The notes under the pieces are model-generated. The model was given only the letters and a program-made list of their open reading frames with translations. It did not search any database and was not told where the DNA came from. A stretch of DNA of 35,949 nucleotides from Thermococcus sp. (lineage in GTDB: Archaea; Methanobacteriota_B; Thermococci; Thermococcales; Thermococcaceae). Shown here piece by piece: positions 1 to 24,361 of the stretch. Made by a program: the position numbers and the translations under genes. Positions within the stretch are counted from its first letter, which is position 1, and the number at the start of each line of letters is the position of its first letter. The stretch spans positions 1-35,949 of the forward strand of contig NZ_JALSLB010000058.1 in NCBI RefSeq assembly GCF_026988555.1, in the 5' to 3' direction.

Positions 1-281
1 GTGTTCAGATCCTTCATTGCCTTTATTTTCCTCTCGCGATCGCCTTTGACCATCACTCCGTCGGCGAAGTCCGCCAGGCCGTCGAGGTGAAGGAGGCCAA
101 TTGTGAAGTAAAGCGCGATAACCGCTAGGACGTTCGAGAGGGGAAGCCTTAAGTAGAGGACGAGCATTGGGAGCGCTGAACTAACCAATGCAACGAGTGG
201 AAAGGCCCAGAGCTCCTCGCGGGCTTTTTCGAAGTCGCTCATGACTGGCACCCGTGTCAAGAACGGCAGGAGGTTCCTCAT
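1..281 (-). CDS. cobS: CobS, adenosylcobinamide-GDP ribazoletransferase (N-terminal part, runs off window)
   Basis: CobS is the membrane enzyme that joins alpha-ribazole (phosphate) to adenosylcobinamide-GDP, the lower-ligand step of B12 assembly. The visible 93 codons begin [13 protein letters not shown], the usual CobS opening, and contain the family signature [16 protein letters not shown] near residues 63-78, followed by a charged segment ([13 protein letters not shown]). A hydrophobic stretch around residues 30-60 is a membrane segment. The start ATG (279-281) overlaps the cobZ stop in an ATGA junction, so the two genes are translationally coupled. The 3' end lies outside the window. The assignment is firm because the HLDGLAD motif is diagnostic; whether the full gene is intact cannot be judged. 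Confidence 0.93.
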
Positions 282-691
282 GGCCAGTCCGCCTCCGATT
301 CGAAGAGCCTCGTCATGCAGCCCGCTATGAAGCCACCTATTGCGTCGTCGAGGAATGGCGGTAGCCTACTCAAAACCCCTGGCTTCTTGGTGTCGTAGTA
401 AAAGAAGTTGAAAAGGGCCATTTTACCGCCGATGTATTCCGCTATGCTTATCCCAATAAGTTCATCGGCGACTAAGTTCACCGGATCGCCATCAACCCGG
501 AAGTTTTCCTCGAGCAGGAGCGCCGCCATGAGAAGGGACTGAACGTTAATGTCGTCAAGATAGCGGAGCATCGTCTCCTCCAGCAGTTCTCTAACGTCTC
601 CGGCATTTTCGCCGATGTAGAGCTCCATCGCGGTATCGAGCATCTTTTCAAGGGTTATTCCACTGGATTCGAGGAGTTCAATGAGTTCCAT
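278..691 (-). CDS. cobZ: CobZ, alpha-ribazole phosphatase (PgpA-like fold)
   Basis: This 137-residue protein belongs to the phosphatidylglycerophosphatase-A-like family used by archaea as CobZ, which removes the 5'-phosphate of alpha-ribazole phosphate or adenosylcobalamin phosphate. Family landmarks are visible in the C-terminal half: DELIG near residue 76, [12 protein letters not shown] near 94-105, and [14 protein letters not shown] near 111-124 with the paired aspartates. It is coupled to cobS by a 4-base overlap, which supports the B12 role over a phospholipid role, though the fold alone cannot separate them. The start ATG (689-691) has GGAGGGG about 11 bases upstream. That ribosome binding site and the start both lie inside the last codons of the upstream unknown gene, a 14-base overlap. 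Confidence 0.85.
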
Positions 692-2558
692 TATAAAAAC
701 CCCTCCTAAAGCTTGTACCCAAGGCCGAGGATTTAAGTTCTTTTAGGTAATCTCCAAGTGGTATGAGCTTTTCATCTTTGATGTCAAGAGTGTAAAATCT
801 GATATCTAGGGTTGGATACACTTGTTTCACTATTTTTATGAGTTTGGCAAACTCCTTGGCATGGAGGAATGCTGTAATTGGCTCAACAACAACCTTAACA
901 TTTCCTTGAGATTGCTCGTATTTTCTAAGAGTCTTGTGGATCTTTCCAAAACCTTCTTCAAATAACGTCTCGAACTCATAATTCTCATTGTTAAAGCAGA
1001 CATCAACAATAGCACCATTTTTTGGTTCTTCAGTCTTTATAAGATCTTTTATGAGTTTCCAATTTTTTCTTTTGCCTTTTGGCATCATTCCCTTCTTTTC
1101 GAGTTGTTTTATCAGCCAGCGAACAATGAATGCTTTTCCTCTTAGATGTTCTATGCTTTCATTCTCTCCTGGTTTGACGATACCCAAGATGTTGTAGTAT
1201 TCATCCCCAATCTCCTTAAGCTTCTCTTCATATTTGTCTTTACTCGCGTTAAGAACTGCATCCATTGAAACATTTGGGGGAGTTTCTCCTTTGAGATCCA
1301 CGAATCCAAAAAGTAAACCTGCAAGTTTGAGTTTTTCTTCAAACGAAAGTCTCCTAGGTATTAACTTAACAATTTTAGCTCCTAGGTGGAGCCGGCTCCA
1401 GTTTATTTCATTCAAGAGTGTTGCATATTCTTCAAAGATTTTGTCATTTTTGGTATAAAAGATCACAATCCCTTTCTTCTTTGAGAAAATTGCCCAGAGT
1501 CTATCAACCAAAGACTCTTTATCAATCTTAATCTTTACGTCTTTAGCATCCAGTTCAATCAGAAAAAGCTTTCCTTCATCAAGCCATTGTTCAATTTCCC
1601 TTTTGTTCCAATCTTCTCTGAGTGTAAGCTTTTTGACTTCTGGATATCCACCATGCTTTTCTCTGTAGATCCTAAGAATGAGGGTTTCAAACGTCTGGAT
1701 GTAACTATCATCTTCATAATCCTTGAACAATACTACAAGCGGCTCAACGTCTCTAACTTTCCGGGCACCATTACCGAATAAGAACTCTAGCGGGTCTTGA
1801 AGTTCTTCCCAGCTAACTTCCTCTTCTCCACTCCCTGTCTGTGCTTCGACTGCATAGGATGCCTTAGTAATCTCCTCTTGAGGCTGGATTGATTCCATCA
1901 ATTCTTTATTAATCTCTGCAACACTTTCCCTTCGAGCCTGAACAGTAGGCTGGGCTGAGTGGTGAATTAATCGGGGAGTTAAAACTTCCACATTCAATGA
2001 AGCCATCTCAAAGGACATTGAGGGCTTTTGAAAAACAAACTTGGGAATAAAAACTTTCCTTCCCTGCTTACTTATTGAGTAATCAATGTCAAGTCTGCCT
2101 TCTGAGAATTCAATAATTGACTTTAAGAGCTTAACGTTTGGGATTACAAGAGTACGAGTTTTTTTCCTGATTGGAAAGCTTGTATCGAGCTTAAAACCTA
2201 AAAACTCGAAAGCTGGAGGAAAAACCCTAAACTCTGGAACTATAAGCTGGTGTTCTTTCTTCTCTCTTGGATAATCTAAAGCTAATGATGCTGTTTTGAA
2301 AGATATAGCTGGCTCCCTCAAGTTGAGGACAGGAACCATGATGTTTTTCTCAATTTCTTTTGAAATCTCCTGAATTTGAGTTCTATCTTCTGTGCTCTTC
2401 TGGAGTTCCGGTTGTACAGGTGGCGTTTGGAGAGGTGGGACTTTGGAAGATTCTGTTTGTTTCTGTTTCTTAGCTTTTCTTCTCTCCCTTTCTCTTCGTT
2501 CTTCATAGTAATCCTCCCTGAATGCTCTCTTCGATTCTTGTTCTGGCATTATAACCAC
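678..2558 (-). CDS. Unknown protein: charged N-terminus, four 32-residue repeats, C-terminal PD-(D/E)XK-like domain
   Basis: I do not recognise this 626-residue protein. Residues 10-70 are charged and low in complexity. Residues 74-192 hold four tandem repeats of about 32 residues, each starting with a (V/I)P motif (VPVLNL at 75, VPEFRV at 107, IPNVKL at 139, IPKFVF at 171) and having a Phe and a Leu at fixed places; this suggests a beta-rich solenoid. Residues 467-600 resemble a PD-(D/E)XK nuclease core: E467 and H471/K475 on a helix, D519 in AIVDV, E528-x-E530 in YEFET, then K539/K542, followed by alternating beta and helix segments. No membrane segment is seen. The start may be the GTG at 2558, with GAGGT about 6 bases upstream, or the ATG at 2549, which shares one base with the stop of the partner gene. 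Its AT-rich composition differs from the flanks. Nuclease activity is inferred. Confidence 0.7.
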   Translation of the reverse strand: MVIMPEQESKRAFREDYYEERRERERRKAKKQKQTESSKVPPLQTPPVQPELQKSTEDRTQIQEISKEIEKNIMVPVLNLREPAISFKTASLALDYPREKKEHQLIVPEFRVFPPAFEFLGFKLDTSFPIRKKTRTLVIPNVKLLKSIIEFSEGRLDIDYSISKQGRKVFIPKFVFQKPSMSFEMASLNVEVLTPRLIHHSAQPTVQARRESVAEINKELMESIQPQEEITKASYAVEAQTGSGEEEVSWEELQDPLEFLFGNGARKVRDVEPLVVLFKDYEDDSYIQTFETLILRIYREKHGGYPEVKKLTLREDWNKREIEQWLDEGKLFLIELDAKDVKIKIDKESLVDRLWAIFSKKKGIVIFYTKNDKIFEEYATLLNEINWSRLHLGAKIVKLIPRRLSFEEKLKLAGLLFGFVDLKGETPPNVSMDAVLNASKDKYEEKLKEIGDEYYNILGIVKPGENESIEHLRGKAFIVRWLIKQLEKKGMMPKGKRKNWKLIKDLIKTEEPKNGAIVDVCFNNENYEFETLFEEGFGKIHKTLRKYEQSQGNVKVVVEPITAFLHAKEFAKLIKIVKQVYPTLDIRFYTLDIKDEKLIPLGDYLKELKSSALGTSFRRGFYNGTH

Positions 2559-3754
2559 CGTTCTACCTCTTTTACGAAATTATCATCGTAAATCAGCACA
2601 TCTGGTTCTTTTGCCGAGATTATCCTTGACAATCCTAAGAACAGTCTCGGACCAACTGTGTCAAGAAATTCTGGAAATGAGCATTTTGCTTGTTCGTGAA
2701 TATGCTTGTAGTAGCTTGGTGAGTATTTATTCCAGTACTCTAAAATGAAAACGCCATTAATTCTCAGATAATACTCAACTCCATATTCGTCGAGTCTCTT
2801 CAAACCAGATATTTTTGAGATGGTATACTGGGGAAGCAATTTCTCAACGAAACTTATGTAATCTTGCCTTAAGTTCTCAACTTCTGGAACAGCATAAGCA
2901 AGCACCTCTTTAATTTGGGATGGATATATGTCAGCGTGGTTAAGCATCCAAATTCTATCTTGTGAGACGTCAAAGAACAACCATAGTCTAATTTGCATCT
3001 GATATAAATTATTTGCAATTCCATCAACTTTGTGTCCCCAAATAGTATAATTCTTTTTGATCTCTTCACTTTCAACGTCTGGAACAAAAATCGGCTCAAG
3101 TCCTAAAAAGTCTTTTAACTCTTCAAAATTCTCTTTTAGCTTTGGATATGCTGCGATAATATATTTCCAGTGAAGGCCCGCAGTGCTTATAACAAAGAAT
3201 GTATAGTAGTTGTGGTTTGCACTGAAAGAAACACATGCCTTATAAAGGTCTTTTAATATGTCCAAAAGTTTATTTGGATCTTGGAGAATTTCATTGACTC
3301 CTATGTTATGTTGAGTTTCGATTTTGGCTTTTCGAAGAATTGTACTGCTAGCTTCATTGAGTCCCTTTATCATTCTCAAAAAGCTTATCTCTTTTTCATC
3401 TTTGGATTTTATTCTAACAGCCTTGAGTCCTTTCTCACCTACTTCTCCCACTGCAATACTAAACTCCCTCGGCTCGACATAAATGCCAAACATCAATTTA
3501 ATTAGCTTTGCAAGGCTTCTCTCCTTGTAGTTTCCGTTCTCATCAATGCCACCAACGAAGAAGGGCAGGAGCCTCTCATCATTATCCTTCACGGCTTTTA
3601 AAGACTTCCCGACGTATGGAAGGAGCTCATTCCTAAGTTCTAAAAGTGCTGTGGTAGATTTATAAATTGGCACAATGTATTCTTTAATGTAATTCTTCCA
3701 AGCCTCAACATCCCAATAGCGGAAGTTTGGAATCGTATCATAGTAGCTTCCCAT
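2549..3754 (-). CDS. Unknown 401-residue protein, partner of the nuclease-like gene
   Basis: This is an unrecognised soluble protein of 401 residues, rich in aromatic and charged residues, with no obvious membrane segment, nucleotide-binding loop or cysteine cluster. It ends where the 626-residue gene begins (TAATG or a 10-base overlap), so the two are translated as a pair and probably act together. The start ATG at 3754 is preceded by GGTGAT at a normal distance, and a TATA box at 3788-3795 sits where transcription would start about 12 bases before the ATG. Codon use is AT-rich across both genes, unlike the GC-richer cobamide and dph6 genes on either side, which points to transfer as a unit. 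I assign no function; a partner or regulator of the nuclease-like protein is only an inference from the pairing. Confidence 0.75.
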   Translation of the reverse strand: MGSYYDTIPNFRYWDVEAWKNYIKEYIVPIYKSTTALLELRNELLPYVGKSLKAVKDNDERLLPFFVGGIDENGNYKERSLAKLIKLMFGIYVEPREFSIAVGEVGEKGLKAVRIKSKDEKEISFLRMIKGLNEASSTILRKAKIETQHNIGVNEILQDPNKLLDILKDLYKACVSFSANHNYYTFFVISTAGLHWKYIIAAYPKLKENFEELKDFLGLEPIFVPDVESEEIKKNYTIWGHKVDGIANNLYQMQIRLWLFFDVSQDRIWMLNHADIYPSQIKEVLAYAVPEVENLRQDYISFVEKLLPQYTISKISGLKRLDEYGVEYYLRINGVFILEYWNKYSPSYYKHIHEQAKCSFPEFLDTVGPRLFLGLSRIISAKEPDVLIYDDNFVKEVERWL

Positions 3755-3787: not shown

Positions 3788-3795
3788 AATTTAAA
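3788..3795 (-). promoter_or_regulatory. TATA box of the AT-rich two-gene island
   Basis: AATTTAAA on the minus strand, about 38 bases before the 401-residue gene's ATG. With the usual 25-base TATA-to-start spacing the leader would be about 12 bases and would hold the GGTGAT ribosome binding site. The island therefore seems to carry its own promoter. Confidence 0.6.
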
Positions 3796-3884
3796 CATTT
3801 CTCCGAGTTTTGCACATCATAAAGACTTCTTTTGTTCCAGCTGGCATTGCTCTCTATTTCTTGCTTTTGGCTCTCAATCATTTC

Positions 3885-4526
3885 TCATTCTCTCACCAGC
3901 CTGAACTTCAGCCACCAGTAGGTCTCGCTCTCATCCACCTTCTGCGGCTTCAGCTCAAAACTTCCCTCAAACAGCGGGCATTTTAAGACCACCGTGTGGA
4001 ACTCGGCGAACTCGCCGACCGGGTCAACGCCCGGGTTTTCGCTTAGGAATTCTTCCAAATCATCAACCGAGCGGAAGGTGTAGCCAAGCCATTCCCTTCC
4101 CAGCTTCTCCTTGTTGACGGCTATTATCGAGTATTCAAAGCCAGTTTTCAGGATTTCCTCGGCGAGTTCTCTCGTGCTCCTTCCCCAGGGGGGTTCGAAG
4201 GGCTTCACCCCCGCTTCTTCCGCAAAGTGTTCAATCCACCTCAGGTGGTCCTCCAGCGGGACGTCGCCCGCTATGAGGTAATCAACGCCGAGAGCTGAGA
4301 TGAACTCCGCCAGAGCCTCACTCCCTTTGGCCATGTCGAAGGTGAGGAGCTCCTTTCCCATAGCCTCGGCCAGCGTTTTTAATGCTTTAAAGTTCTCCCA
4401 GTGGGGCGAGAGACCGATGGTCGTTTTCAATGCGAGCAGGTAGGGAACTTCGATCCTGTTTTTCTCCGTCAGATGGAGAGCATAGAGTCCATCCTTGCCG
4501 CCCGAGAAGAAGGCAACACCCCTCAC
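3885..4526 (-). CDS. dph6: Dph6-type diphthine--ammonia ligase / PP-loop ATP pyrophosphatase
   Basis: This 213-residue protein is an N-type ATP pyrophosphatase of the Dph6 family, which amidates diphthine on elongation factor 2 with ammonia and ATP. The PP-loop is at residues 8-12 (SGGKDG). Typical family segments follow: ALKTTIGLSPHWEN near 32-45, LIAGDV near 84-89, EPPWGRSTRELA near 110-121 and PVGEFAEFHTVVL near 168-180. The start is a GTG (4524-4526) that overlaps the stop of the upstream zinc-ribbon gene as GTGA, with GGAAGGT just before it. Archaea often carry two paralogs of this family, so the exact substrate is less certain than the fold and chemistry. Confidence 0.82.
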   Translation of the reverse strand: MRGVAFFSGGKDGLYALHLTEKNRIEVPYLLALKTTIGLSPHWENFKALKTLAEAMGKELLTFDMAKGSEALAEFISALGVDYLIAGDVPLEDHLRWIEHFAEEAGVKPFEPPWGRSTRELAEEILKTGFEYSIIAVNKEKLGREWLGYTFRSVDDLEEFLSENPGVDPVGEFAEFHTVVLKCPLFEGSFELKPQKVDESETYWWLKFRLVRE

Positions 4527-8253: not shown

Positions 8254-8808
8254 ATGGGGTACCTTTCACTAACCCACGATCAACAGGCGTTGATCTATCT
8301 GCTTCATGCCTACACTGGAACTCAGACAGATGGATTCTTATGGGTGAAGGAGCTCCATCTAAACGCGCTTATCTACCATCTGATAAAAGCAGGTGTTTTT
8401 GAGGAGTATGACTACGCTCCAAGCCTTGTAACTTTCCATGGTATCAAGATGTATGCAAAGATAAGCCAGGAAGTGCTATGGGACCTGGAGAGGTTCAGGA
8501 GAATCGGCATGGTACAGAAGCTCAAGCTTTCAAACAAGTATTACGATGATGTAGGTGCCTACCGGCTCCACAACGGTATCTCCAAGATAAGCAGGTTCGT
8601 ATCTATGGACGTCATGAACACGGTGGAAGAAGAGATTGGATGTGGCAAGGAGCGCTTGACGGTTCTTATCTCTGAGCATCCACAGAGGGGGAGGACAGTT
8701 CTGGACGCCTACCTCAGGTGCCCCCCAGAGGGAATGCGGAAGATAGACTTCTTTGACATAAGAAGGATAGCCTATTCTTCGAAGAGCTATCTGCCTGAGG
8801 TGGTATGA
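8254..8808 (+). CDS. Unknown 184-residue soluble protein, first gene of a coupled pair
   Basis: I do not recognise this protein. It is 184 residues long, has no membrane segment, and has a helical N-terminal half (HDQQALIYLLHAYTG near 8-22, LHLNALIYHLIKAGVFEEY near 34-52) that could be a winged-helix-like or coiled region. The C-terminal third is basic (ERLTVLISEHPQRGRTVLDAYLR near 138-160). The ATG at 8254 has GAGG almost touching it, so translation may instead depend on a nearly leaderless mRNA. It ends in an ATGATGA overlap with the next gene, so the two proteins should be made together and may interact. A DNA-binding role is only a guess. Confidence 0.7.
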   Translation: MGYLSLTHDQQALIYLLHAYTGTQTDGFLWVKELHLNALIYHLIKAGVFEEYDYAPSLVTFHGIKMYAKISQEVLWDLERFRRIGMVQKLKLSNKYYDDVGAYRLHNGISKISRFVSMDVMNTVEEEIGCGKERLTVLISEHPQRGRTVLDAYLRCPPEGMRKIDFFDIRRIAYSSKSYLPEVV

Positions 8809-10202
8809 TGGAGGCCAAGAGTTACATTCATCTACTTGGCAGAACCCGAATACTGATAACCGAATGGTTGCCCTTCGGTGAGAACACCATCTTGGAGCTT
8901 TCGAGGAAGCTTGAAACGGAGAGTGGAGAAGGCACTCACAGTATTCTGACGGAGGTTATAGATCCCGAGCCGCAGGAAATGATATTCAGAACCGATTCCA
9001 TCCCTACGGTGATCCAGGTAATCAGGAGCGAGGAAAGTAGAAGTATAGACTTCAAGTGTGCCGTGGCATACTCGGAGACCAACGCGGATATACAGGAGGA
9101 ACATTTCGGTGTGCACGTTGATAACCTTGGCAGGATAATCTATGGCCTTGAACTTCTTGAGGCAGGTGGCTCGCGTGGCAGGTACAGCATTGACAACGTG
9201 TCCTCTGTTATCGCTGATCTGGTTCATGACAGTTCCAAAATGCTGAATACCGTAATATCGAAGTATCAGAAGCGGCTTCTTGAGCTTATCTACTTCAACG
9301 AACCCCTACATCGTGACAAGTTCTTTTTGGTCTTTGCGGAGGGGATGGAGCCGAACATGGATGATGACTCACTGATGCAGTTTTTACAGGGAGTTCTTGA
9401 ACTCAAACAGGTGTTATCTTCGATTAAAACGGTAAAGACCCTTGAAGATGGGACTCTTATGATACTCGGGGCCCAGGGTGTAATAGCCGTGGGTGAAAAT
9501 GCGTTTGAATACGAACAGGTTCTGCTCACGTACGCGTTCATGAAGAGCATAGAGAACAGCCTAGAAAACGCCCTTGCAAGGCTCTGGCGTTCGTGGGATA
9601 TGTCGGAGGAGCTCAAGGACAGTGTGTTCTCCAAGGAGGGTACAAACTCACTTAGGGAAATAAACAGACGAATAAGCGAGCTTCAGAGTGACGTCTCAAT
9701 AGTCACCTCAGTTTTCAGGTACATAAAGGATACTTTGAGTTCACTCAGTAGTGTGATATTGGAGCTTCGGGGGGATTCAGTGTACGATCTTCTTGGGATA
9801 GACGGGAGACTGGAGATCCTAAGAAGACGTGTGGAGGATGCTATACCCGTTGCCGAAACACTCTCGAGGGAGGTGGAGATACTGGTCAGCGTTGCGGATA
9901 CTCTCCTGGACAACTCCATCGTAAAGCTCATGGACGCTGTTGAAGAAAACACGAAGAGATACGTAGCTATTGGAGAGGCCCTTGAGCTGCTTGAGGTGGG
10001 TATATTTGGGGTTTATGCGGTTGAGCTTATCCACATAGCGCTTCAGTACAGTGGGATAGAGGAGGACCTGATGAGGTTCAGCTTTCTGGGTCTCTCATTG
10101 GCTTTCTGGACGATACTCACCATAGGACTCGGCGGCATAATCTTTGCGTGGTACCTGCTGAAGCTGACCAAGAAGAGGGTAATGGGGGAACACGGAAACT
10201 GA
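8805..10202 (+). CDS. Unknown membrane-anchored protein: soluble N-domain, coiled coil, two C-terminal TM segments
   Basis: A 465-residue protein with no recognised family. The first ~250 residues look like a mixed alpha/beta soluble domain. Residues about 260-395 are helical with heptad-like hydrophobic spacing (repeated LSSLSS, LEILRRRVEDA, LSREVEIL, VADTLL). Two hydrophobic segments follow, about 398-418 and 428-456, with a short basic tail (KLTKKR). This resembles the layout of CorA-like channels (soluble domain, long stalk helix, two TM helices), but the GMN selectivity motif is absent, so transport is not supported. The upstream gene overlaps it; either ATG 8805 or ATG 8808 may be used, with GAGGTGGT just before. 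A membrane-tethered sensor or scaffold working with the 184-residue protein is an inference. Confidence 0.7.
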   Translation: MMEAKSYIHLLGRTRILITEWLPFGENTILELSRKLETESGEGTHSILTEVIDPEPQEMIFRTDSIPTVIQVIRSEESRSIDFKCAVAYSETNADIQEEHFGVHVDNLGRIIYGLELLEAGGSRGRYSIDNVSSVIADLVHDSSKMLNTVISKYQKRLLELIYFNEPLHRDKFFLVFAEGMEPNMDDDSLMQFLQGVLELKQVLSSIKTVKTLEDGTLMILGAQGVIAVGENAFEYEQVLLTYAFMKSIENSLENALARLWRSWDMSEELKDSVFSKEGTNSLREINRRISELQSDVSIVTSVFRYIKDTLSSLSSVILELRGDSVYDLLGIDGRLEILRRRVEDAIPVAETLSREVEILVSVADTLLDNSIVKLMDAVEENTKRYVAIGEALELLEVGIFGVYAVELIHIALQYSGIEEDLMRFSFLGLSLAFWTILTIGLGGIIFAWYLLKLTKKRVMGEHGN

Positions 10203-21542: not shown

Positions 21543-23156
21543 ATGAACAGAGGGCTGCTCTATGCCATGTTCCCTATCATTTTGACCGTGGCTTTTGTGG
21601 GTAGCTTGGAGTCTATTCCAGGTCCTCCGTACGGAGGCGATCTGTATTTCCACAACGGCATTGCCGAGGCAATATTTCACGGTACTCCCTTCTTTAGAGA
21701 CCCAACGAACTACGAAGGCTACGCATTTTACCCCTGGTTCTATCATTTCATCGTTGCACTCCTCGGGCATATTGCTGGAGGGGTAATGCCCGTAACGGTC
21801 TATGTGATGCCCGTTTTCATACTTCTGCTGTCTATAATTACGGTGTACTTCCTCGTAGGTGAGCTGACAACAGAAAGCGTGGCTGTGCTGGCTCCCCTGC
21901 TCCCCATCTCGCTCCATTTCCCGGATCCTCATCCCCATACCCTCCTGCTGATGGTATTTATCCCTCTCTTCTATTTCGTGCTTGTTCGCTATCTAAAGGC
22001 CCCATCGACCAGAAATGGGATTTTTCTGGGGGTCTCCTGGGCCCTTGGGGGCCTAACCCATGTTCTGGGAACTTTTGGGATTGGGGCGGTGATTCTTTCG
22101 AACGTGGCTTGGGACGTTGGTAGGGATAGGGACCTGTCTGCGGTGAGGAGATGGATTATTCCGTTCCTTGTTGCCATCCCACCCTTACTCCTCTACTGGG
22201 GCCCACTTCTATTTGTCTACCACGCTAGAACCCCAAATCCCTACCAGAGCTTGGTCTGGGCCCATTATACAATCGTCAGCTTCACGGCCGATATGGTAAC
22301 GTTTTTTGTATCTTATTCCTGGAGGGGGGCACTTTCCCTTCTCGCCCTTGCTGGCCTGTATGCCCTTGTGAAAACCAGACCGTACCCTGCGGTTAGAATC
22401 TTTGTATCATCACTCCTGGGTATGTACGTAGAGGGGATCGTGTTTATACTGCTTGGAAACCCCCTGATTGCAAAGAAACTGAGCCTGTATTTCTTCACGC
22501 TGGATATTATACTGATCTCCGTAGGGATTACATACCTCCTCTCCAGATTCTCTCAAAAGAAGTCACTGGTCGTAGTGACTGCTATACTCCTGGTGCTCTC
22601 CGGGGCCACTGTGGTAGAGTCTGCATCCAACCCATGGGTCCAGATTGGTTTCCATGAGTTCCCCTTCGAAAGCCTTCAGGCATGGCTCCTTGAGAACACA
22701 AACGTTAATGATGTCATTCTCAGCAACTACGAGGCCTCTTTCATGCTGTTCTCAATATCTGGCAGAAAAACCGTGCTGTTTAGGAGAACCCATGCATCAC
22801 CCTTTGTTGACTACGATAAGAGAAGTGCCGATATAATGGTGGCACTGTTGGGGAACAACGGCACAAGAACACTTCAAATCCTGGAAAAATACCATGTAAA
22901 GTACATTTATGTGGATAAAAGTACTTCGAGTGATCCCCTCTGGGTTCCGGTTTCATACAAGGGCTACCTTGAGGTCAATGGGGTCCCCTGCCACGTCGAG
23001 TGGGTGAGGTACGATCCCGCCGACCCCAGTAGTGTAAAGATCAAAGCATGTGTTGCGCAGTTTAACATCTCCCGGTTGGTCCCATACCTCCAAGAGGTGT
23101 TTAGGAGGGGAGATTCTGTACTTTTTAGGGTATGTTATCCCGATGAACGGTGTTGA
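21543..23156 (+). CDS. Polytopic membrane protein, probable GT-C-fold glycosyltransferase
   Basis: A 537-residue protein with about ten hydrophobic segments in the first ~345 residues and a hydrophilic C-terminal domain of about 175 residues. The first extracytoplasmic loop carries PPYGGDLYFHNGIAEAIF near residues 28-45, with an aspartate where GT-C enzymes (STT3, Alg/ArnT-like) keep a catalytic acid, and a second loop has HFPDPHPHT near 124-132. These features suggest transfer of a sugar from a polyprenyl-phosphate donor on the outer face. The C-terminal domain (EKYHVKYIYVDKST near 446-459) is like those of archaeal dolichyl-phosphate-dependent transferases. The substrate is unknown. The next gene is another polytopic protein, so a role in surface glycans is likely but inferred. 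Confidence 0.6.
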   Translation: MNRGLLYAMFPIILTVAFVGSLESIPGPPYGGDLYFHNGIAEAIFHGTPFFRDPTNYEGYAFYPWFYHFIVALLGHIAGGVMPVTVYVMPVFILLLSIITVYFLVGELTTESVAVLAPLLPISLHFPDPHPHTLLLMVFIPLFYFVLVRYLKAPSTRNGIFLGVSWALGGLTHVLGTFGIGAVILSNVAWDVGRDRDLSAVRRWIIPFLVAIPPLLLYWGPLLFVYHARTPNPYQSLVWAHYTIVSFTADMVTFFVSYSWRGALSLLALAGLYALVKTRPYPAVRIFVSSLLGMYVEGIVFILLGNPLIAKKLSLYFFTLDIILISVGITYLLSRFSQKKSLVVVTAILLVLSGATVVESASNPWVQIGFHEFPFESLQAWLLENTNVNDVILSNYEASFMLFSISGRKTVLFRRTHASPFVDYDKRSADIMVALLGNNGTRTLQILEKYHVKYIYVDKSTSSDPLWVPVSYKGYLEVNGVPCHVEWVRYDPADPSSVKIKACVAQFNISRLVPYLQEVFRRGDSVLFRVCYPDERC

Positions 23157-23177
23157 GTTTTGACTTATCGATCGCTA

Positions 23178-23197
23178 AGATAAAAATTAAAAATAAT
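23178..23197 (+). promoter_or_regulatory. AT-rich promoter region of the DUF2079 gene
   Basis: GATAAAAATTAAAAATAATG, a long A/T tract just after the preceding stop codon, would place transcription near 23215. GAGGGTG lies about eight bases before ATG 23261. Confidence 0.45.
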
Positions 23198-23260
23198 GCT
23201 ACCCAACATAGCCCATCAGGCTCCACAAGTGCTCAGAATCATCAAGAGGGTGTTACAACA

Positions 23261-24361
23261 ATGCGTTCACGCTACAGTGTGGCGGTGATTGTGCTGGCCG
23301 TGGTTTATTTCATGTTCTTCACGCAGTATTCGATCCAAAGGACACATGTTTGGTACGAAACTCGCGGTAATTATGGTTTCGACCTGGAGGTCTTTTATTA
23401 CAGTCTCCTCAACACTATCCATGGGGACGGTTTCTTTTTTAATAATCTGGAATTCAAAATGTTCAATGCCACCAGCCACTTCGGTGTTCACAATTCACCT
23501 GTTTTAATACTACTACTTCCGCTGTTTGAGTTGGCCCCTAAAATCGAGACACTGCTGGTTCTTCAGTCTCTTTTTTTAGCGCTTTCAATCGTCATGTATT
23601 ATCTGTTCGGTTTAAAGGTTATGGGAGATGAAAAAAAGGCGCTGATGCTTGCCGCCGTGTACGCAGTGAATCCGGCATTGCATGGGCTCAATAGATTTGA
23701 GTTCCACCCGGTTTCCTTCGCTCCATTATTCATCTTTCTGTTTGCCTACTTATATGAGGCCCGTAAGTTTAGAACAGCCCTTACGTTTGCAGTTTTAACC
23801 CTTTCGGTAAAGGAGGACGCGGGGTTGGTTCTACTAGCATTGTCAGCTTTTTACGTGCTACGTTGTGGAGATATGGACGGCCAGGTTGTAAAATTTAACG
23901 TTCTGATCAGTGCATTGGCGATTTTTTGGATGTTTATAAGCTTGATATTCGTTATCCCACATTTTGCCCCGGTCTATGGTCAGTTTAGATGGTTCGCTCC
24001 CAACGTGCCCGTAAAATTGCTCTCGATGCTGCTTTTGGCGATGATACTATCCTTTGGATTGTTACCTCTTTTAAGACCAAAATACCTGTTGCCCTTCCCG
24101 ATCCTCCTTACTGAGCATCTCCTATTTGCAAACAAAACTAATCTCTTTATCTTCTGGAATCATTATGAATACATGATCATAACCTATCTTGCCATTGTTA
24201 CAGTATATGTTGTGAAAGAGAAGAACCTCCCCGCAAGGATCCTACTCTATGCGTTGGCAATAGCAGTTTTGACGTTCTTTATATCCTCGCCCGCGGTTTA
24301 TGAAGGCTTTCCCCTAGTGTTTGGGATAAGAATACCGTACCGTTTTCTGATTTTATACTGA
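23261..24361 (+). CDS. DUF2079-family polytopic membrane protein
   Basis: A 366-residue membrane protein. After an N-terminal helix comes the DUF2079 hallmark: GFDLEVFYYSLLNTIHGDG near residues 38-56, then ATSHFGVHNSPVLILLLPLFEL near 70-91 and a stretch with TLLVLQSLFLALSIVMYYLFGL, both given by position. FEFHPVSFAP near 147-156 and SVKEDAGLVLL near 184-194 are also typical. These proteins look like GT-C-type glycosyltransferases but are not characterised. I start it at ATG 23261 with GAGGGTG upstream; the open frame reaches back to 23150 over an AT-rich promoter region. It seems short for the family, ending without the usual hydrophilic tail just 45 bases before the tRNA, so a 3' truncation is possible. 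It is visibly more AT-rich than most genes here. Confidence 0.7.
   Translation: MRSRYSVAVIVLAVVYFMFFTQYSIQRTHVWYETRGNYGFDLEVFYYSLLNTIHGDGFFFNNLEFKMFNATSHFGVHNSPVLILLLPLFELAPKIETLLVLQSLFLALSIVMYYLFGLKVMGDEKKALMLAAVYAVNPALHGLNRFEFHPVSFAPLFIFLFAYLYEARKFRTALTFAVLTLSVKEDAGLVLLALSAFYVLRCGDMDGQVVKFNVLISALAIFWMFISLIFVIPHFAPVYGQFRWFAPNVPVKLLSMLLLAMILSFGLLPLLRPKYLLPFPILLTEHLLFANKTNLFIFWNHYEYMIITYLAIVTVYVVKEKNLPARILLYALAIAVLTFFISSPAVYEGFPLVFGIRIPYRFLILY

Follow-up and report, generated by a model that had tools for sequence, protein, structure and literature searches.

A Horizontally Moving Two-Gene Module of Archaea with a Predicted Nuclease-Like Effector

INTRODUCTION

Archaeal defense beyond CRISPR, restriction-modification, and BREX (bacteriophage exclusion) systems is thinly mapped. 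A survey of BREX and DUF499-centered systems presents, as a theme, inactive P-loop domains that serve as sensors next to restriction-endonuclease-like domains; by word search, it mentions neither Thermococcales nor proteasome homologs (PMC12839542). A 2021 survey of prokaryotic proteasome homologs gives no genomic context or AAA+ co-occurrence for them (PMC8665760). Here, we analyzed a pair of genes, P0001 and P0002, on a 35,949-nucleotide (nt) stretch of Thermococcus sp. DNA (contig NZ_JALSLB010000058.1; here, the window) from a 1.97-Mb genome. A first-pass annotation, made from the sequence alone, had described the pair as an AT-rich island that splits the cobamide (B12) genes and had read it as a transferred nuclease with a partner, in the shape of a defense or selfish module.

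Our analysis shows that the island is a copy of an undescribed, horizontally moving two-gene module with a patchy distribution across archaea. Because of its mobility, decay, AT-richness, and defense context in some genomes, the module is best read as a conflict module, most likely one for defense against viruses or plasmids with a predicted nuclease-like effector; we put the probability of this reading at roughly 0.55. The module has no family in Pfam, NCBIfam, PADLOC, or PHROGs, yet it recurs in two archaeal phyla and crosses genera. The pair is compact, its source group is genetically workable, and the obvious residues for mutagenesis can be named.

RESULTS AND DISCUSSION

An AT-rich pair at a cobamide gene junction

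P0001 (678..2558, minus strand) is an open reading frame (ORF) of 626 amino acids (aa) from a GTG start, or 623 aa from an ATG at 2549, for which homologs were found. The upstream member of the pair, P0002 (2549..3754, minus strand), is an ORF of 401 aa and overlaps P0001 by 10 nt if the GTG is used and by 1 nt if the ATG is used. The two-gene arrangement and the splitting of the B12 genes both held: cobZ, encoding alpha-ribazole phosphatase (278..691, minus strand; TIGR03161, 1.2e-50), and cobS lie on one side, while a dph6-like gene of the PAB0415 family of ATP pyrophosphatases (3885..4526, minus strand; NF052346, 5.6e-110), followed by cbiB and a class I/II aminotransferase gene, lies on the other. 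The compositional deviation was borne out by calculation. GC content is 0.39 for P0001 and 0.37 for P0002 versus 0.53 for the flanks, GC content at third codon positions is 0.36 and 0.38 versus 0.49 to 0.81 in the 19 other window genes tested, and codon bias is 0.69 and 0.67, the most deviant values of the window, versus 0.18 to 0.54 in 19 other genes. A TATA-like TGTTTAAATT (3788..3797, minus strand) and a Shine-Dalgarno-like AGGTGAT occur 5′ of P0002, both as readings of the letters and not as statistical tests.

Comparison with empty sites locates the insertion exactly. In seven relatives without the pair (L172, L173, L174, L175, L179, L183, and L186), the pyrophosphatase gene directly joins cobZ, its stop codon lying within an ATGA that can also supply the cobZ start codon (ATG). 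The window pair is located exactly at that ATGA, and because the end of P0001 overlaps the cobZ start (678..691, minus strand), translational coupling to cobZ is kept. A role of the pair in B12 synthesis could be suspected from its location, with cobZ on one side and the PAB0415-family gene on the other, an arrangement shared with the genome G054. That genome holds the one other copy found at this site, which is thus not a fixed housekeeping locus in all relatives; every remaining copy lies elsewhere, and relatives with the same cobamide genes do without the pair. Because the site comparison contradicts a B12 role, we rejected it as highly improbable.

The junction where the PAB0415-family gene meets cobZ has other small inserts in several Thermococcus relatives and therefore appears to be a site of repeated insertion. 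In L176 (934-1632) and L184 (786-1484), the insert consists of an 89-aa gene and a 142-aa gene bearing VapC-type motifs, and a related VapC-like gene of 143 to 145 aa stands alone in L180 (1905-2342), L182 (1055-1492), L185 (1902-2333), and L187 (1902-2333). These labels are motif readings, and a PDB search with one of the VapC-like proteins gave no match.

The presence of an apparent VapB-VapC pair in two relatives and of a VapC-like gene alone in others lends some weight to a selfish addiction pair, in which P0001 would act as a nuclease toxin and P0002 as its antidote, and cells losing the pair would be killed. What links the window pair to VapBC type II modules is the operon junction, which a VapBC-like pair fills in two relatives; the VapBC proteins are unrelated to P0001 and P0002, both of which are far larger than the members of usual type II pairs. 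On these and the following grounds, we consider pure addiction unlikely.

Patchy distribution, transfer, and decay

Of 94 Thermococcales genomes, 21 have a P0001 relative, as do 23 of the 393 genomes from a second archaeal phylum (that of G087) and one metagenome-assembled genome (MAG) named Thaumarchaeota. The named records carrying homologs are mostly Thermococcus MAGs. Pair identity runs in reverse to that of leucyl-tRNA synthetase (LeuRS): G054, of the same genus and with the pair at the same junction, shares 91% LeuRS identity with the window and only 38% and 34% identity in the pair, whereas G106, of another genus and with the pair at a different site, shares 84% and 60% and 63%, respectively. 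The module is lower in GC content than its flanks at every one of 33 loci (mean difference, 8.1 points). Further copies are flanked by a Trm5-like gene and RFC genes (G027, G028, G041, and G052) or adjoin the aIF2-gamma gene (G107 and G111), all of these names being read from sequence.

Several copies are broken. The large gene is in three pieces in G023, split in G107, and reduced to a C-terminal remnant in G105, while an internal deletion fuses the two genes in G030. Frameshifted copies in G028, G041, and G016 were set aside as proof of decay; these are draft genomes in which assembly error is possible, and the decay claim therefore depends mainly on the single-contig genomes G023, G105, and G107. 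The broken copies bear on addiction in both directions. G023 and G107 combine a broken large gene with an intact partner, as would be expected of a toxin and its antidote, but the G041 MAG copy has a broken partner and an intact large gene, with sequencing error as a possible cause.

P0002 matched nothing in the plasmid and phage collections, and the viral contigs searched gave no match either. A haloarchaeal homolog matches one Halorussus plasmid (NZ_CP035121.1; L190, 5133-9344), where a 1,403-aa protein carries a P0001-like region at its C terminus behind a long unknown N-terminal part; the gene comes after one resembling PLD nucleases. Taken together, the inverted identities, low GC content, patchy spread, and broken copies support the view that the pair was horizontally acquired, as the first-pass annotation had supposed, and is dispensable.

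The two genes travel together

In 34 of 36 intact or nearly intact large-gene loci, a P0002 homolog immediately precedes the large gene on its strand; the spacing is usually −35 to +36 nt, and the two genes mostly overlap. The exceptions are L153, in which the gene is truncated, and L159, in which an unassigned 371-aa ORF takes the partner's place. The partner E values are optimistic, since these very loci served to refine the partner profile; many partners had already been matched by the first profile. The coupled pair thus keeps the same order across archaea. A partner gene that comes first and is translationally coupled would also suit an antidote.

Domain architecture of P0001 and P0002

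P0001 combines three parts. Four beta-type repeats of 32 residues (1953..2336, minus strand; residues 75 to about 202, with motif starts at 75, 107, 139, and 171) account for the beta-rich region noted earlier; the period is exactly 32 residues (P < 0.006 by shuffling) and is about the same in the G027 and G087 homologs. A middle alpha/beta domain (1299..1796, minus strand; residues about 255 to 420), overlooked in the first-pass annotation, resembles AAA+/RecA-like folds by Foldseek, with matches to DnaA, DnaC, IstB, and p97 (best E values, 6e-4 in PDB and 9.5e-5 in BFVD) at probabilities of 0.96 to 1.0, yet with low TM-scores. The Walker A motif (GxxxxGK[ST]) is absent from all 34 P0001 homologs. 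The AlphaFold model was built from eight sequences and is mostly good from about residue 255, with the repeats at low confidence.

The third part is a C-terminal nuclease-like domain (723..1181, minus strand; residues about 460 to 612), delimited by conservation and by the order of AlphaFold elements. In an alignment of 32 homologs, from which L158 and L160 were excluded because they showed no E-x-E-T stretch, D519, E528, E530, and T531 are invariant (32/32 each), and H471 (28/32), K475 (31/32), E510 (30/32), and K539 (29/32) are nearly so. The motif set (E..H...K / E / D / E-x-E / K) is therefore real and conserved. The modeled order is a helix (469-488), two strands (520-522 and 525-530), a helix (537-550), a strand (554-558), further helices, and a strand (586-592). 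In its motif order (H/K helix, E, D, E-x-E, and then K) and in its predicted helix-strands-helix-strand order, the domain resembles the PD-(D/E)XK superfamily with CoiA-like or BamHI-like sites, and its order and topology, as modeled, fit a nuclease of that kind. It differs in that the Lys of the classical E-x-K is absent; replacement of E-x-K by E-x-E is known from BamHI.

The PD-(D/E)XK assignment itself comes from motif order and AlphaFold topology. P0001 had no significant match in Pfam, NCBIfam, PADLOC, or PHROGs and no match in PDB sequence searches, and no nuclease appeared in any sequence or fold library searched; for this reason, we do not assign superfamily membership. Weak scores went to HSDR_N_2, CoiA_nuc, PDDEXK_4, and Mrr_N (E = 0.05 to 0.1). 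CoiA-like membership was considered and is not claimed, since it is based on a single member at an E value of 0.07, and in the searches with the pair, weak matches to Rad60-SLD (E = 0.013) and to a cobalt-precorrin methyltransferase (E = 0.017) were dismissed as chance.

P0002 is confidently predicted to be largely helical, with beta structure toward its C terminus (AlphaFold pLDDT, 77.7; pTM, 0.80). Searches of Pfam, NCBIfam, PADLOC, PHROGs, and PDB sequences gave no significant match, and a fold search of the PDB gave nothing at an E value of ≤0.001.

Defense neighborhoods

In some archaea, the pair lies near other defense genes. By matches to PADLOC models and PF08665, in G242 it is inside a BREX cluster, between PglX/PglZ and BrxC; in G136 it adjoins a BrxA-sized ORF, BrxB, BrxC, and PglZ; and in G364, PglZ, PglX, and BrxC are 13 to 26 kb away. 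The G108 pair adjoins DUF499 and DUF1156 genes, and that of G292 adjoins a large N6-methyltransferase gene, a helicase-like ORF, and a PADLOC TPR gene. Among the six pair-bearing genomes with any PglZ match, three have it within about 16 kb of the pair, for which rough, uncontrolled arithmetic gives a chance of a few in ten thousand (one or two matches per 2- to 4-Mb genome). What the module shares with BREX and DUF499-centered systems is therefore a gene neighborhood, in at least four archaea; it holds none of the defining BREX genes itself. PglZ, BrxC, and PglX do not make up a BREX locus in the window, genes of this set being close to the pair in no genomes other than G242, G136, and G364, and PglZ was not found in the window's own genome. 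At L155 (3836-16345), a BREX cluster of a haloarchaeon that includes two PglX genes, the pair lies between PglX and BrxC together with nucleotidyltransferase-like and winged-helix-like ORFs, and in L035 (8169-12003) the G087 pair comes after two small genes resembling a RelE-type toxin-antitoxin pair.

Several points weigh against a defense module. No known defense gene was recognized beside the pair among the window genes tested, no model of PADLOC 2.0.0 matches the pair, and a known defense system is nearby at about 5 of some 40 loci, most loci having none. The closeness to PglZ was seen in loci that had been selected for carrying the module, with the G364 case 13 kb off. No database match confirms the PD-(D/E)XK fold of P0001, and AT-richness and mobility suit addiction modules equally well. 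The reading of the first-pass annotation stands in part: the pair is mobile and dispensable, it has a nuclease-like domain at the C terminus of P0001, and its relatives in some archaea are among BREX, DUF499/DUF1156, and methyltransferase/helicase clusters. We prefer defense over pure addiction because of the BREX-type context and the extra genes described below; recurrence in BREX clusters and companions such as a proteasome homolog or an AAA+ protein would be atypical of addiction pairs.

Proteasome-homolog and Cdc48-like companions

A feature missed in the first-pass annotation is the presence of recurrent companion genes. In a subfamily from five Thermococcales genomes (G023, G034, G054, G057, and G107), a row of four genes encodes a proteasome homolog, a protein of 304 to 311 aa with no assigned family, the partner, and the large protein; four-gene operons lie at L038 (8202-12693), L092 (7250-11714), L039 (8756-13259), and L095 (8289-12811). 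The G039 locus, where the contig ends, has the last two genes of the row, and the three-gene row of G111 lacks the 304-aa member. In the distantly related G289, of the other phylum, two partner-like genes, the large gene, and a proteasome homolog stand in a row, which brings the genomes with this companion to seven. PF00227 matches of the companions are 6.2e-5, 1.3e-6, and 4.5e-17 (the last in G289), with that of G111 (4.4e-4) just under the cutoff; the window itself has no such gene. Across the 94 Thermococcales genomes, this homolog is strongly matched at six loci only (the four four-gene operons, the three-gene L096, and the partly broken L037), and its association with the module is therefore exclusive there. 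The homolog retains a Thr after the start Met as well as the SDSR and KKI positions. A Cdc48/VCP-like AAA+ gene is directly downstream of the module in G382 and G521, apparently split in two in the latter, and G433 has a different AAA+ gene as companion.

The companion belongs to PF00227, as do orphan prokaryotic proteasome homologs, but it could not be assigned to any of the 22 families of the 2021 survey and differs in having a recurrent context (PMC8665760). The companions thus supply genomic context where that survey gave none (PMC8665760).

These rows, in which the proteasome homolog retains its Thr, SDSR, and KKI positions, and the adjoining Cdc48-type genes are also what would be expected of a protein quality-control or regulated-proteolysis module that feeds substrates to proteasome-like or Cdc48-like machines, the nuclease-like domain binding nucleotides or RNA without cutting. 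The proximity of several copies to genes read as translation genes (dph6-like, aIF2-gamma, and Trm5-like) points the same way, but such neighbors may merely mark good insertion sites. Most copies lack a companion of this kind, the strictly conserved D, E-x-E, and K argue for catalysis, and a patchy, decaying distribution is unlike that of quality-control systems; we regard this explanation as quite improbable.

For the preferred defense module, the following mechanism can be envisaged. P0002, the P0001 repeats, and the AAA+-like region would assemble into a sensor complex in which the PD-(D/E)XK-like domain is kept inactive; a signal from an invader would free the domain, and nucleic acid would be cut through a D519/E528/E530 site. 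Where encoded, the proteasome-like or Cdc48-like product may remodel or degrade the partner and thereby switch the nuclease on or off, whereas the Thermococcus pair might act by itself or together with the host proteasome and Cdc48. It is a tentative and rather doubtful idea that the module represents a new archaeal immune class. In it, a nuclease of atypical E-x-E type would be joined to a dead AAA+-like sensor and to a partner whose fold has no match, and processing of the partner by a dedicated proteasome homolog or a Cdc48-like unfoldase would act as a proteolytic switch. If true, this would provide the first functional setting for orphan proteasome homologs.

Other segments of the window

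Two adjoining ORFs of 184 and 465 aa (8254-10202; GC content, 0.48), without a Pfam match, sit between a methyltransferase gene and a gene for a class I tRNA synthetase, presumed to be LeuRS. Two overlapping genes at 21543-24361 have GC contents of 0.50 and 0.43 and codon biases of 0.43 to 0.54, the second encoding a DUF2079 membrane protein; this is possibly another acquired segment.

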